From: Terriglobia bacterium
GTDB lineage: Bacteria; Acidobacteriota; Terriglobia; JAJPHL01
Direction of reading: 5' to 3'
Length of the DNA stretch: 47,124 nt
NCBI GenBank assembly: GCA_021325275.1
Contig: JAJPHL010000061.1
Coordinates: 1-47,124, forward strand
Of this stretch, positions 209 through 5,775 are shown one piece after another. The position numbers and the translations under genes are program-made. The notes below the pieces were generated by a model, which worked only from the letters and a program-made list of their open reading frames with translations, searched no databases and had not been told where the DNA came from. How positions within the stretch are numbered: position 1 is the first letter of the stretch; each line of letters begins with the position of its first letter.

Positions 209-526
209 CCGATCCCGTGGGAGTCTGTGCGACAACTGAGCGCCGAGCCTGCGACAGCAGGCAGCAGCGTCTAGCCCAGAGCGCGCGCCGAAGCGCTTTG
301 GCTTCGGCGAAGCTCTGGGTTCGCGTCGGAGGAAAGGAAAGCCCACGACGTGGGCGACAGGACCTGGCGCTGAGCCTGCCGCCCACTTTGTGGGCTTTCA
401 ATTCTTGTGATCGGTGACCCAGGGCCGGCCCGCGAAAAGGGCGCGGTCTGCGCCGCTGGGCTACCCGCTGCCGCCTGCTATCGCAGGCTCGACGCTCCGT
501 TGTCACACAGACTCCTCCGGGATCGG
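209..526. repeat. Large imperfect inverted repeat, family 2, copy A
   Basis: The left arm begins at 209 (CCGATCCC, then GAGTCTGTG and GACAAC). It pairs with a right arm ending at 526 (GTTGTCACACAGACTC, then GGGATCGG). Arm similarity runs for about 60 bp, through CGAGCCTGCGA, AGCAGGC and TAGCCCAG. The middle holds secondary hairpins, for example AAGCGCTTTGGCTTCGGCGAAGC near 290-313 and an arm pair built on AAAGCCCAC/GTGGGCTTT at about 337-400. The end sequence GAGTCTGTG(T/C)GACAAC recurs at both ends of the 4181-4473 element, so both belong to one family. No transposase lies inside. No gene is supported between 192 and 683. Confidence 0.8.
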
Positions 527-1447: not shown

Positions 1448-2431
1448 TTACGGCAGCGTGTAGAACTGGTACTCGATCCGCCAATCTGCTTGCTTCCCCG
1501 GCTCGATTCGCAAATCAACGTAGGCTTCAGGAGAAACATTCGAGCGGATCGACCAGAAAGCCATCTTGGCAAGAGGCCGGTTTCCGGTTTGATGCACGGC
1601 GGTTCCCGTCTTGCGATTCTCCACGCGGATGTCGTAATCCTTGGACGTCGACCCGAATCCCTCCAACTCGGTGTACACGCTTTGACCCGGCTGCAATTCT
1701 TGCAAATAGCGCACTTCCCGGCCCCGCGTTTCCGCCAATCCGTTCAGCGGGCGCGCGGCGCGCGGTTCGAAGGCGAATCGGATCACAAAGTCCGGACCGG
1801 ATGGCTGGCCGTCGAGCATGAAGAAGTTGTGTTCGTACACGCTCGTCGCGATGGTCTTGCGGCCGGTGTTTTCCAAGTGGTGCTCCAAAACCAGTTTGTC
1901 TCCCGCCAGCAGGATTTTCTTGCGATAGAGATAGGCATAACCCGCCGTGTCGCCGAGTTGCTGTGTGAATTCGATCCAGTCCGAGCCTTTCTGCGTCGTC
2001 CACTTGCCGGAATCGGCGATCTCGTAGGTGTGGAACTGCTGGAAAGCTTGGTCGTCCGGCTTGCGGATGGCGCCGACGCCGATCTTGACGAAGGCCTCCC
2101 CAGGCTTGACTTCCGTAAACCCGAGTCCGGCGCCATTGGTGAGAAACTCTTCTACCGGACCGCTGATCGCGTCGTGAGTCTTGGGATCGTAGTGGTCGAA
2201 CCATTTTCCAAAGTAAGTGTGACCCTTCCATTCCAAAGTGGCGATGACGCCGGACCAATCGAAGCGCGTCGCCCGGTAGTATCCGGACTGGGCATCGGGA
2301 AGGTATAGCTTGGCGTGGATTTGGGAATTGGAAATCTCGGCCTCCGGAAACTGCGCGGTGGCGGTCCCTCCCAGAAAAATAACCATCAACATCAACGCGA
2401 ATAACGTTTGCGCCATCCTCGCCCTCTTCAA
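1448..2431 (-). CDS. Secreted protein with galactose-mutarotase-like fold
   Basis: This is a 327-residue exported protein with an N-terminal signal peptide (about residues 1-27, ending near TATAQFPEAE). The body reads like the aldose 1-epimerase/galactose mutarotase superfamily: long beta strands, a central HTYEI.....W region, and near residue 195 the motif VYEHNFFMLDG followed by PDFVIRF. It lacks an obvious full catalytic His/Glu set in the usual spacing, so it may bind or process carbohydrate without being a canonical epimerase. The next gene is divergent, with about 150 bp of shared upstream DNA. A second possible start lies five codons inside (MAQTLF). Substrate unknown. Confidence 0.7.
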   Translation of the reverse strand: MKRARMAQTLFALMLMVIFLGGTATAQFPEAEISNSQIHAKLYLPDAQSGYYRATRFDWSGVIATLEWKGHTYFGKWFDHYDPKTHDAISGPVEEFLTNGAGLGFTEVKPGEAFVKIGVGAIRKPDDQAFQQFHTYEIADSGKWTTQKGSDWIEFTQQLGDTAGYAYLYRKKILLAGDKLVLEHHLENTGRKTIATSVYEHNFFMLDGQPSGPDFVIRFAFEPRAARPLNGLAETRGREVRYLQELQPGQSVYTELEGFGSTSKDYDIRVENRKTGTAVHQTGNRPLAKMAFWSIRSNVSPEAYVDLRIEPGKQADWRIEYQFYTLP

Positions 2432-2578
2432 CGCCGATCTTCGGCTCCATCATCAGCCAGCAGGCCCGATCGCAAGTCGATGATACGCGATCCGCCGGAC
2501 ACGGCCACAAATGTTTGCTCTGGGAAATCGAGCTCCACGCGCTGGCTCGCAGCCGCCGTTTTGGAGTATCATCTGCCG

Positions 2579-4165
2579 ATGCATACAACTCGTCTCGCGC
2601 GTACATTGGCAATCATCGTTTCGCTTCTCTTCTTGTTTCTGACGCTGAATTTCCCCACCTCGGCTCAAGGACGCCAGGGAACGGCGGCAACCCCACAAGC
2701 GCCGGGCGCGCCCCCCGGCGGACGTGGAGGCGCGGCGACTCCCGCCGCGGTGATCGGCGGCGAAATCGACGAAACACCGGTGGTCACGCATCACAGCGTG
2801 ACGGTCCACGGCAAGCCGATCAACTACACCGCGACCGTGGCGCAGATGCCGCTGAAGGATGCCTCCGGCGAAACCGAAGCGCACATCTTCTACATGGCAT
2901 ATACGCTCGACGGAGTGGCGGACGCGGCAAAACGTCCGCTGACTTTCTGCTTTAACGGCGGACCAGGGTCGGCGTCCATGTGGGTGCATATGGGCGGGAT
3001 GGGGCCACGCAGCCCGAAGCTGGAACCGAACGGCAGCATGCCGCCACCGCCCTACCAACTGCAGGACAATCAGGATACATGGCTCGACCAGACCGACCTC
3101 GTATTCATCGACCCGGTGGGAACAGGTTACAGCCGCGCCAAGACCATCGAAGTGGCGCGGCGCATGAACGGCGTCCAGGGCGATATCCAGTCGGTGGGCG
3201 AATTCATGCGCATGTATATCGCCCGAAATAATCGCCAGCTTTCTCCGCTGTTGATCGCAGGCGAGAGTTATGGAACGTTTCGCGCGGCGGGACTCGCCGG
3301 GTACCTGATCGATCGCGGCATCGCGTTCAACGGCATCGTTCTCATCGGTACGACGCTCAATCTGGAAACCATCTGGAGCCGGAGCGACGATCTGGTCTAC
3401 CAGTTGCTCCTGCCAACCCAAGCGGCCGATGCCTACTATCACAAAAAGGTCGCGGCCGATTTGCAGCGGAAGGACCTATCGTCATTTCTCAAGGAAGCGG
3501 AGAGCTTTGCGATGGGCGAGTACGCGTCCGCGCTCGCCAAGGGCGATGAGATTGCTCCCGCCGAGCGTAAGGCCGTCATCGACAAACTGGTGCGTTTTAC
3601 GGGACTCGAACCCCGTTATCTGGAAAACACCAACATGCGTTTCGATGTCTCGCATTTCTCGCGCGCGCTGCTGCGCGACAAACGACTCACCATTGGCCGC
3701 TACGATGGCCGTCTCACGGGTCCCTCCGGGCTCAATGTGGGCGAGACCAGCGAGTTCGATCCTTCCAGTACGCTGATCACTCCGCCGTTTACGGCCGCCT
3801 TCACGAACTACATCCGCACCGAACTCGGGTACAAAACCGACATGTACTACTATCCGAGCGGCGGTATTCAACCGTGGGATTACGCCGTCCAAAACGGTTT
3901 CGGAGATACGACAGCCATGCTTCGCAACGCGATGGTGAAGAACCCTTACATGAAGGTGATGGTGGCCGCGGCGTACTTCGATCAGGCGACACCATACTAT
4001 GCCGTCGAGTACACGTTCAACCACATGGGGCTGCATCCCGAGATGCACAAGCGGATTTCTTTTGAGTTCTACCAATCGGGCCACATGCTGTACATCGACA
4101 GTGATTCGCACGCCAAGCTGAAGCGCGATTTTAGCGAGTTTCTATCGAGGGCCGTCGGAAAATAA
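2579..4165 (+). CDS. Secreted serine carboxypeptidase-like protein, peptidase family S10
   Basis: This exported alpha/beta-hydrolase of 528 residues belongs to the S10 family, which removes C-terminal amino acids. After a signal peptide (about 1-30) comes a Gly/Pro/Arg-rich linker (GAPPGGRGGAATP). Family marks follow: FNGGPGSASMW near residue 125 (oxyanion loop), GESYG with the nucleophile at about Ser230, YFDQATPY with the acid at about Asp468, and YQSGHMLY with His at about 502. The full triad is present, so the enzyme is probably active. The open frame runs further upstream, but the signal peptide sets the start at 2579. The next annotated feature downstream is the inverted repeat at 4181. 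Substrates are probably extracellular peptides (inference). Confidence 0.92.
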   Translation: MHTTRLARTLAIIVSLLFLFLTLNFPTSAQGRQGTAATPQAPGAPPGGRGGAATPAAVIGGEIDETPVVTHHSVTVHGKPINYTATVAQMPLKDASGETEAHIFYMAYTLDGVADAAKRPLTFCFNGGPGSASMWVHMGGMGPRSPKLEPNGSMPPPPYQLQDNQDTWLDQTDLVFIDPVGTGYSRAKTIEVARRMNGVQGDIQSVGEFMRMYIARNNRQLSPLLIAGESYGTFRAAGLAGYLIDRGIAFNGIVLIGTTLNLETIWSRSDDLVYQLLLPTQAADAYYHKKVAADLQRKDLSSFLKEAESFAMGEYASALAKGDEIAPAERKAVIDKLVRFTGLEPRYLENTNMRFDVSHFSRALLRDKRLTIGRYDGRLTGPSGLNVGETSEFDPSSTLITPPFTAAFTNYIRTELGYKTDMYYYPSGGIQPWDYAVQNGFGDTTAMLRNAMVKNPYMKVMVAAAYFDQATPYYAVEYTFNHMGLHPEMHKRISFEFYQSGHMLYIDSDSHAKLKRDFSEFLSRAVGK

Positions 4166-4180: not shown

Positions 4181-4473
4181 GAGTCTGTGTGACAACTCAG
4201 CTCCGAAGGGGCGCGCTATGACAGCCCAGGTCGAAGCCGGAGCGTTTTTTGCTCCGGCGCAGGCCTGATTGGGTTACAGTGCGGTAGAACGAAGCGCTGA
4301 AAGCGCGATTCAAAAAATCAGAGCGACTCAGGCGAATGAGGTTTGGGTCGTCCTTTCAGGACTCCATTTCATAATCCAACTCGACCCAGGCCTACGCCGG
4401 AGCAAAAAACGCTCCGACTCCGACCTGGGCTGTCATAGCGCGCCCCTTCGGGGCTGAGTTGTCACACAGACTC
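4181..4473. repeat. Large inverted repeat, family 2, copy B (87-bp arms)
   Basis: The arms 4181-4267 and 4387-4473 are 87 bp each and match at 83 of 87 positions when one is reverse-complemented. All four mismatches are transitions. Each arm starts at the outer end with GAGTCTGTGTGACAACTCAG and contains an inner hairpin (CCGGAGC-GTTTTTT-GCTCCGG). The 119-bp loop (4268-4386) codes for nothing recognisable. As RNA it would fold into a very stable stem and could terminate the S10 transcript. The shared outer ends and intact arms suggest a mobile, MITE-like origin. Copy A at 209-526 has the same outer ends but different inner sequence. Confidence 0.85.
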
Positions 4474-4474
4474 T

Positions 4475-4514
4475 TAAGGGCGTCCGCGGTTCCGTAAGGG
4501 CGTCCGCGGTTCCG
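4475..4514. repeat. 20-bp tandem duplication
   Basis: The unit TAAGGGCGTCCGCGGTTCCG occurs twice head to tail (4475-4494 and 4495-4514) with no mismatch. It sits directly against the right arm of the large inverted repeat and just after the stop codon of the minus-strand gene that ends at 4525. It is probably a slippage duplication. Confidence 0.9.
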
Positions 4515-4524
4515 CCTCTCCTTT

Positions 4525-5775
4525 TTACTGGCAACCCGCCTTCTGCACGGGAGAAAGCTGCGTCAGCAAAGCCGTGTTGGGATAACTGTATGCGCCGCCG
4601 ATGGCGTCGGAGGGCGACTTGAATTGAAACCACGGCAGCAGCGCCTCGCTCTGCGGATGGTAGGTGAAGCCGCCGATGGTCACCGGAGTGGTGGCTCCCG
4701 GGAGGCCTTCGACCACGTCTCCCGTCTCAAGATCGTTTTGGCAGTTGCCGTTGGGCGCCAGCCACCACGGCGTTATATTGTGCACGCCGTCACTGGCGAC
4801 GAACGGATCGTTCAGCGTCTCGACAACCTCGTGACTGTGCGCAGTGACGTCAACGAACGAAGGGCCGAAGAGCCCCGGCGAGATCCAACTCGAATAGTTG
4901 ACCACGTAGCGCTTCTCAACGTTGCCGTTGGAAGCGTCTCCCGGTTCGAAATCGTAGCTGTGAAAGCCGAGAGTGCAGCAGCCCGTCTGGTCGAAGAGAA
5001 ACGTATTCGGAAACAGGAACGTAGAGATGTCCTGGGTGGTGACCTCGCCGGCGTTCTCCGCCGCGCCGATGGGGGTGGTGGTGTCGCTGGCCACGGCCGG
5101 GAACAGCGCGTTCACAAACGTGTTGGCGTCCACCAGTACGAAGGCGCAGCAGGTTCCGTCCGGGTTCAAGGCAAAGAGATACGTACCGCGGATCAGCGTC
5201 ATCACGCGCGGCGTCTTGACGCTTCCGGCGAGCATCGTGTGCCAGTCGGCCTTGGCCTTGGAATAGTACTCGGCGCGCTGCACGGCGTCGCCGAACTGGG
5301 TGGGGGTCGAGCTGCTGGAATACGTGGAATTCTGAAAGACGGGCGATCCCATCACCAGCGGCACGAATTGCGTGGCGTCGGAATAGAGCCGTTGCCCGTT
5401 GACGTAGCGCGGCGAACCGTCATAATTGCGCAAATCCAACGAGACCGGCACGACAGGCGCATTGATGGTGGTGGTCCGTCCCATCTGCGGCGGGTTTCCG
5501 ACGGTATTTGTGTACCACTCGCGGTTGGGATTCCCGTTGGCATCGTAACCGTCGGCAAAGTAGTGATCGCTGAAATTCACAAGTGAGTCGATATTGGGAA
5601 TGCCGAAGCGCGCGTGGGCTTGGCCGTTTAGATGCGCGTGCGGGGTGACCACCCGAAACTTGCCGTGGGCGGTCGAGAGCGCCGCAACCGTTATTTGATC
5701 GTTATCGGCGGCGAAAGCGGAAGCCATGGAAACAAATCCCAAACAGGCGATGGCAGTGCAGGCGAAACGTGACAT
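4525..5775 (-). CDS. Secreted protein of unknown function with an HExxE motif
   Basis: This is a 416-residue exported protein with a signal peptide (about 1-23, ...ASAFAADND). The body has few charged clusters and several Cys residues in CC pairs (TCCAF, GCCTLG). The clearest feature is TAHSHEVVETLNDP near residue 310, an HExxE arrangement, followed about 30 residues later by an acidic stretch (NDLETGDVVEG). The same layout, HE..E then a downstream acidic/Cys segment, occurs in secreted EXORDIUM/PHI-1-type and related putative zinc-binding proteins. This is resemblance only; I cannot name the family with confidence. It may be a secreted metallopeptidase-like protein or a cell-wall protein. 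It is monocistronic, reading toward the inverted repeat. Confidence 0.6.
   Translation of the reverse strand: MSRFACTAIACLGFVSMASAFAADNDQITVAALSTAHGKFRVVTPHAHLNGQAHARFGIPNIDSLVNFSDHYFADGYDANGNPNREWYTNTVGNPPQMGRTTTINAPVVPVSLDLRNYDGSPRYVNGQRLYSDATQFVPLVMGSPVFQNSTYSSSSTPTQFGDAVQRAEYYSKAKADWHTMLAGSVKTPRVMTLIRGTYLFALNPDGTCCAFVLVDANTFVNALFPAVASDTTTPIGAAENAGEVTTQDISTFLFPNTFLFDQTGCCTLGFHSYDFEPGDASNGNVEKRYVVNYSSWISPGLFGPSFVDVTAHSHEVVETLNDPFVASDGVHNITPWWLAPNGNCQNDLETGDVVEGLPGATTPVTIGGFTYHPQSEALLPWFQFKSPSDAIGGAYSYPNTALLTQLSPVQKAGCQ

Follow-up and report, generated by a model that had tools for sequence, protein, structure and literature searches.

The element analysed here occupies positions 4181–4473 of a 47,124-bp stretch of DNA (hereafter referred to as the window), which is contig 21 of the 6.86-Mb, 75-contig draft genome of a Terriglobia bacterium. 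It stands between two convergent genes, and a second element of the same family, enclosing a different inside, lies near the start of the window.

209–220, plus strand: CCGATCCC followed by GTGG, the left half of the palindrome that flanks element A
221–514, no strand assigned: second family member (element A), 294 bp, which encloses another inside ('inside A')
515–526, plus strand: CTCC followed by GGGATCGG, the right half of that palindrome
2408–4165, plus strand: upstream neighbouring gene (called open reading frame), ending 16 bp before the element
4181–4473, no strand assigned: whole element ('inside B'), MITE-like hairpin, 293 bp
4181–4267, plus strand: left arm, 87 nt
4181–4196, plus strand: left terminal inverted repeat GAGTCTGTGTGACAAC, exact
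4268–4386, no strand assigned: inter-arm stretch between the two 87-nt arms, 119 nt
4387–4473, minus strand: right arm, also 87 nt, pairing with the left arm at 95% complementarity
4458–4473, plus strand: right terminal inverted repeat GTTGTCACACAGACTC, exact
4525–5775, minus strand: convergent neighbouring gene (called open reading frame), ending 52 bp after the element

The inverted repeat with 87-bp arms that the earlier note had described at 4181–4473 is present, with a global arm identity of 0.954, and a smaller palindrome can be read inside the left arm (GCCGGAGC-GTTTTTT-GCTCCGGC). The longest open reading frame in the whole 293-bp element encodes 62 amino acids, and there is no transposase gene. 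With up to three mismatches allowed, an 18-mer of the end has four sites in the window, compared with 0.01 expected, two of them in 4181–4473 and two in 221–514. The two elements do share their ends, as the earlier note had stated, but not at the bounds that it had given for the second (209–526): element A has its 16-bp ends at 221–236 and 499–514 (the shared end at 221 carries one mismatch, GAGTCTGTGCGACAAC) and is therefore bounded at 221–514, whereas 209–220 and 515–526 form a flanking palindrome in which 9 of the 10 stem positions are complementary. The inner sequences of the two elements differ, as had been claimed, with no mutual match at an E-value of 0.01. The 8-mer core GAGTTGTC, proposed to be shared with the ends of a further repeat family (family 1), is present, but the link is weak, as the two strands of the window together contain five occurrences of the 8-mer (two in 4181–4473), compared with about 1.4 expected by plain base counting.

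Directly after the element, positions 4475–4514 of the window hold a 20-bp unit, taagggcgtccgcggttccg, in two tandem copies. On the minus strand, a T-run follows a near-perfect hairpin at 22–72 (GGGCTTTAGCCCCTGCGA...TCGCAGGGGCTAAAGCCC), and a similar sequence, CGCAGGGGCTAAAGCCC, adjoins an element at locus L013.

Copies, insides and nesting in the own genome

Across the own genome, a search for the 16-bp end GTTGTCACACAGACTC with up to two mismatches gives 68 sites, compared with one for the reversed control pattern, so the end is not absent elsewhere. When matches of at least 90 nt within the fetched loci are counted as full or partial copies, inside B is found at 12 loci, comprising four near-complete copies (in the window, L017, L040 and L011) and eight partial ones; inside C is found at 15 loci, full or partial; and inside A at four, near-complete in the window, L024 and L042 and in pieces in L021. 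At least three insides are enclosed by the same ends in this genome, and the flanking sequences of complete copies diverge immediately beyond those ends. Together with the 4-bp target duplications and the transposase-bearing form found in other genomes (see below), these observations support the earlier suggestion of a modular or mobilised hairpin family.

At several loci the ends are stacked, repeating outward about every 28 bp and mirrored on both sides. L009 has five left and five right ends and holds two insides, L011 has six left and three right ends, and L018 contains a bare 52-bp palindrome in which two ends adjoin back to back. A stem of B copies encloses a palindromic copy of approximately 50 bp, as well as inside C copies, in L009, in L031 and at one junction in L036, an arrangement in which the B copies appear to be older than the palindrome and the C copies that they contain. 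In L028:160–585 and L031:643–1069, an outer repeat surrounds inside B, and its ends (CTAGTGTAGTGCGTCA... and the inverted CTAGTGGGGTGCGTCA...) match each other; this outer repeat is probably another MITE hosting nested elements. Each of the contigs C2, C10, C43, C45, C54, C55, C57, C60 and C69 begins or ends no more than a few hundred bases from such an element, and assembly breaks beside elements may hide further copies.

The earlier note had held that selection or recent gene conversion is needed to keep the arms so alike. Either correction or selection predicts higher arm identity within a copy, and we therefore compared the arms of three A, four B and ten C copies. Mean arm identity within copies (A, 0.873; B, 0.893; C, 0.867) is close to the left-to-right identity between different copies (A, 0.868; B, 0.888; C, 0.869), and on average neither process is needed; comparisons of the same arm across copies yield 0.911/0.846 for A, 0.920/0.913 for B and 0.897/0.866 for C. 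The window copy, at 0.954, has the highest arm identity of the four B copies (others, 0.833–0.920), which could reflect recent correction in that copy. On these sequence comparisons, we read the near-identical arms as probably inherited from a master element.

Related ends, transposases and target sites in other genomes

An exact 18-mer scan of a genome collection covering 84,980 species yielded 11 stretches, all 11 titled Acidobacteria or Terriglobia. Both ends (up to three mismatches) are present in 6 of the 11, giving element lengths of 110–338 bp; in the other five, no second end was found at that threshold, and L062 has a more diverged one by eye. Counts of end sites with no more than one mismatch in the 12 genomes examined further are 166 in G401, 130 in G403, 40 in G404, 21 in each of G122 and G400, and 11, 7, 5, 2, 2, 1 and 1 in the rest, and the control gives one match in total across the 12. 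A phylum sample of 396 genomes, searched at up to two mismatches, contains 15 genomes with a match, and more than one match occurs only in the own genome (G000; 62) and G122 (18), indicating that the family is patchy. Single matches in the remaining 13 genomes were given no weight, as 19 genomes match the reversed control; one of the 13, G266, has a second end (L084) and is included in the set of target sites described below.

Comparison of 15 representative insides, two IS included, produced few matches at an E-value of 0.01. The insides of L060 and L150 (both in G401) and L141 (G404) match at 80–84%, insides A and C have common stretches of 22–27 nt, L065 matches inside B over 38 nt at 79%, L056 and L057 match over 17 nt, L059 and L063 over 26 nt, and the two IS (L120 and L066) match each other.

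Both of these IS belong to the IS1182 family. L120:1426–2824, in G400, spans 1,399 bp, has a single stop within its reading frame and is flanked by the target duplication TATA; its ends have one and zero mismatches of 16, and the right end is identical to that of the window element over 18 bp. L066:797–2135, in G242, encodes an intact 400-residue transposase, which scores 306.6 bits against the IS1182 model NF033551 (cut-off, 270) and has the Pfam domains DDE_Tnp_1, DUF772 and DDE_Tnp_1_6. The ends of L066 have GAGTCTGTGTGA (12 bp) in common with those of the family but carry two and three mismatches over 16, and its target duplication, TTCA, lies in the loop of AGCGGGC-TTCA-GCCCGCT. Among 13 genomes searched, the IS1182 model exceeds its cut-off in these two (G400 and G242), and, among the matches fetched, such ends occur at loci there only. 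The IS1182-like loci L067–L078 were rejected as carriers of the ends, none having fewer than four mismatches. G242 also contains ten copies of a second IS1182-like transposase (a 361-residue frame in eight and a longer 797-residue frame holding two), three fetched loci of which (L112, L121 and L128) are without GAGTCTG ends.

In the own draft assembly, the search with the IS1182 family model found no transposase with these ends; it gave one partial match, on C17 (E = 8.5e-11), without them, and a search with the L058 transposase fragment (L058 record JAIQGH010000027) gave no match. An end lies no more than about 350 bp from the high-end break of own contigs C2, C10 and C57 and from the low-end break of C55, so a transposase-bearing copy could be missing from the assembly.

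We examined target sites in 42 elements of other genomes with both ends (12-mer, up to two mismatches) 30–1,600 bp from each other and with 16 bp of flanking sequence; the set, cleared of duplicates and of rows with a single end, covers fetched loci, including 20 places in G403 picked from the end-site list. An exact 4-bp direct duplication is present in 25 of the 42 (10,000 shuffles of the right flank: mean, 3.2; maximum, 10), and exact 3-bp and 5-bp direct repeats in 0 and 1 of the 42, respectively. The 8-bp flanking stems match at 5.38 of 8 positions, compared with 3.79 in shuffled flanks (maximum, 4.57). In these other genomes, as for IS1272, the palindromes entered have no common sequence. 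In G403, 9 of 17 rows are flanked by an exact CCCCGCCA on one side and an exact TGGCGGGG on the other, indicating that one palindrome was used repeatedly there.

The signal is weak in the own genome, which has a direct 4-bp duplication at 1 of 15 outermost pairs (shuffled mean, 0.07), and its flanking stems match at 6.0 of 10 positions versus 5.3 in shuffled flanks (95 of 5,000 shuffles as high). Copy L017, which has the same inside B and is 92% identical to the window element, is flanked by the duplication TAAG between CACGGC and GCCGTG. Element 4181–4473 itself has neither a target duplication (CAAG/TTAA) nor a palindromic flank (4 of 10 stem positions). Loop letters are exactly inverted at 2 of the 15 outermost pairs, a count reached by 955 of 5,000 shuffles, and by eye also in stacked units (for example, GAAG/CTTC). 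The hairpin AGCCCC-GAA-GGGGC is open in L011 and filled with inside C in L009, and GCCCC-GAA-GGGGC is open in L028 and filled with a 50-bp palindrome in L031; in neither pair do the loop letters form a clean duplication. Such letters, like the inverted ones, are not accounted for by simple insertion, and we can only guess that one side was overwritten by the complement of the other.

The Rfam family Acido-Lenti-1 (RF01687) matches the B stem of the window element at 24.3 and 19.0 bits, below the gathering cut-off of 37, so the element is not a member; the GAGTCTG-ended MITE of G122, by contrast, contains a match of 55.2 bits, above the cut-off (L085:1559–1604). Among the matches listed for G122, an Acido-Lenti-1 match is found no more than 110 bp away from 20 of the 21 end sites, and 14 of 92 matches are at such elements, most copies thus being elsewhere. 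With 150 candidates scored per genome, there are 107 matches in G122, 59 in G242, 11 in G000, 8 in G404 and 7 in G401, and none in G400, G403 or any of 14 control genomes. Acido-Lenti-1 was therefore rejected as a general part of the family, since G400 and G403 have the ends yet zero matches. Other Rfam matches (MIR7725, mir-3156, Metazoa_SRP and similar) are below their cut-offs and were taken as what a long hairpin yields. Acido-Lenti-1 is itself a dispersed repeat in G122 and G242, with some inverted pairs separated by 130–260 bp. Instead of an RNA gene, it may represent mobile hairpin DNA; the paper that introduced it describes a probable RNA that is probably not cis-regulatory (PMC2864571).

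Origin of the element and competing explanations

We consider it probable, at roughly 0.8, that element 4181–4473 is a non-autonomous, MITE-like relative of IS1182-family IS, moved by a transposase supplied in trans and inserted into a hairpin loop. A MITE family with IS1182-type ends is well supported, and we infer that this copy belongs to it. An IS1182-type transposase would recognize the ends GAGTCTGTGTGACAAC, and the element would have entered the loop of a DNA hairpin, usually with a 4-bp duplication, as seen in other genomes and at one of the 15 own-genome sites, that of 4181–4473 not being among them. As the elements are themselves hairpins, they would also serve as targets, giving rise to nested ends and mosaic insides.

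Gene context was assessed with a home-made codon-usage gene caller at 21 sites, in 20 fetched own-genome regions and the window; 221–514 is without a left neighbour, leaving 20 sites for testing. The elements lie between convergent genes at 11 of these 20 sites, compared with 11 of 72 other gene pairs in the same regions (Fisher P = 0.0006); location downstream of at least one gene shows no significant excess (18 of 20 versus 55 of 72, P = 0.23), and none of the 21 sites lies in or overlaps a called gene. The convergent excess could arise from hairpins at gene ends. It fits insertion into terminator hairpins, which are reported insertion targets of TnSha1/IS1272 (PMC4923244), and also fits purifying selection against other sites. 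The same excess, with the element only 16 and 52 bp from two convergent gene ends, would also suit a hairpin kept by selection as a bidirectional terminator or stable RNA, its spread being secondary. As RNA, the element has a very strong predicted fold (−216 kcal mol−1, z = −23.4), and the arms of the window copy are the most alike among the four B copies. Any inverted repeat folds strongly by nature, however, and mean arm likeness is no higher within copies than between them. A terminator consensus scan of 4181–4473 finds only one 5-bp stem with a T-run (4306–4294, minus strand), no Rfam family exceeds its cut-off there, and, among ten families, IS1182 has likewise been reported in excess between convergent genes (PMC9208149). 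We therefore regard selection for a terminator or RNA as an improbable origin.

Two further explanations seem less probable again. Local formation of the inverted repeat by strand switching in replication (quasi-palindrome duplication) would account for inverted loop letters at some own-genome junctions (GAAG/CTTC and TTCG/CGAA) and for the mirrored end units of about 28 bp, which resemble one arm copied onto the other; yet dispersed copies have the same boundaries and different flanks, target duplications occur in other genomes, and the arms are on average not homogenized within copies, making this origin very unlikely. Even less credible is a REP/BIME-type family moved by a TnpA-REP (RAYT, IS200/IS605-like) single-strand transposase, the short, intergenic, nested palindromes notwithstanding: the elements have true terminal inverted repeats and, in other genomes, 4-bp duplications, and an IS1182-family DDE transposase is found between such ends. 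IS200/IS605-type elements are not known to have terminal inverted repeats or target duplications.

The element stands out for its nesting, for insides that can be exchanged and for relatives that insert into the loops of hairpins. For such hairpins, which exceed 100 end sites in some acidobacterial genomes, the preferred reading would provide a transposase family, an end sequence, a target rule and a 4-bp duplication. More tentatively, and with odds short of even, an IS1182-type transposase in Acidobacteria may drive a self-nesting, hairpin-seeking system, in which gene-less elements sharing the same 16-bp ends enter hairpin loops, including their own, nest like Russian dolls, swap insides, and capture and spread host hairpins, Acido-Lenti-1 among them. 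If so, in some genomes at least, the Acido-Lenti-1 'small RNA' would travel as cargo of a mobile element and would not be an ordinary RNA gene; in one genome, an Rfam RNA family of unknown function is already tied to a mobile element. The family also offers natural material for asking whether IS1182 transposases recognize DNA structure rather than sequence.

Comparison with known systems

In the portions of the openly licensed PMC literature that we consulted, we found no description of this acidobacterial family. Its closest parallels are IS1182-family insertion sequences, above all IS1272 and TnSha1 of staphylococci, for which two papers describe 16-bp terminal repeats, hairpin targets that have no common sequence and are often terminators, and, for IS1272 (IS1182 family), stem-loop targets and a tandem 25-bp duplication of the left end, resembling the stacked ends seen here (PMC5678879, PMC4923244). 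The convergent-gene excess is likewise shared with the IS1182 family (PMC9208149). In contrast to IS1272, which reportedly takes the place of the hairpin or deletes part of it and leaves no target duplication, 25 of the 42 elements of other genomes have an exact 4-bp duplication with their flanks kept, as ISPse1 seems to do, its entries in one table (16/16 and 4) being taken as inverted-repeat and duplication lengths (PMC3281130). The window element also differs from IS1272 and TnSha1 in having no transposase gene.

Like bacterial MITEs, the element is short, gene-less and multicopy, with terminal inverted repeats, target duplications in relatives and a transposase-bearing element with such ends. 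Unlike bacterial MITEs in general, the family has several unrelated palindromic insides per end type, in the own and other genomes, and ends stacked about every 28 bp in several loci. With Acido-Lenti-1 (RF01687), the window element shares a related hairpin that scores below the gathering threshold, whereas the hairpin of the G122 MITE scores above it.
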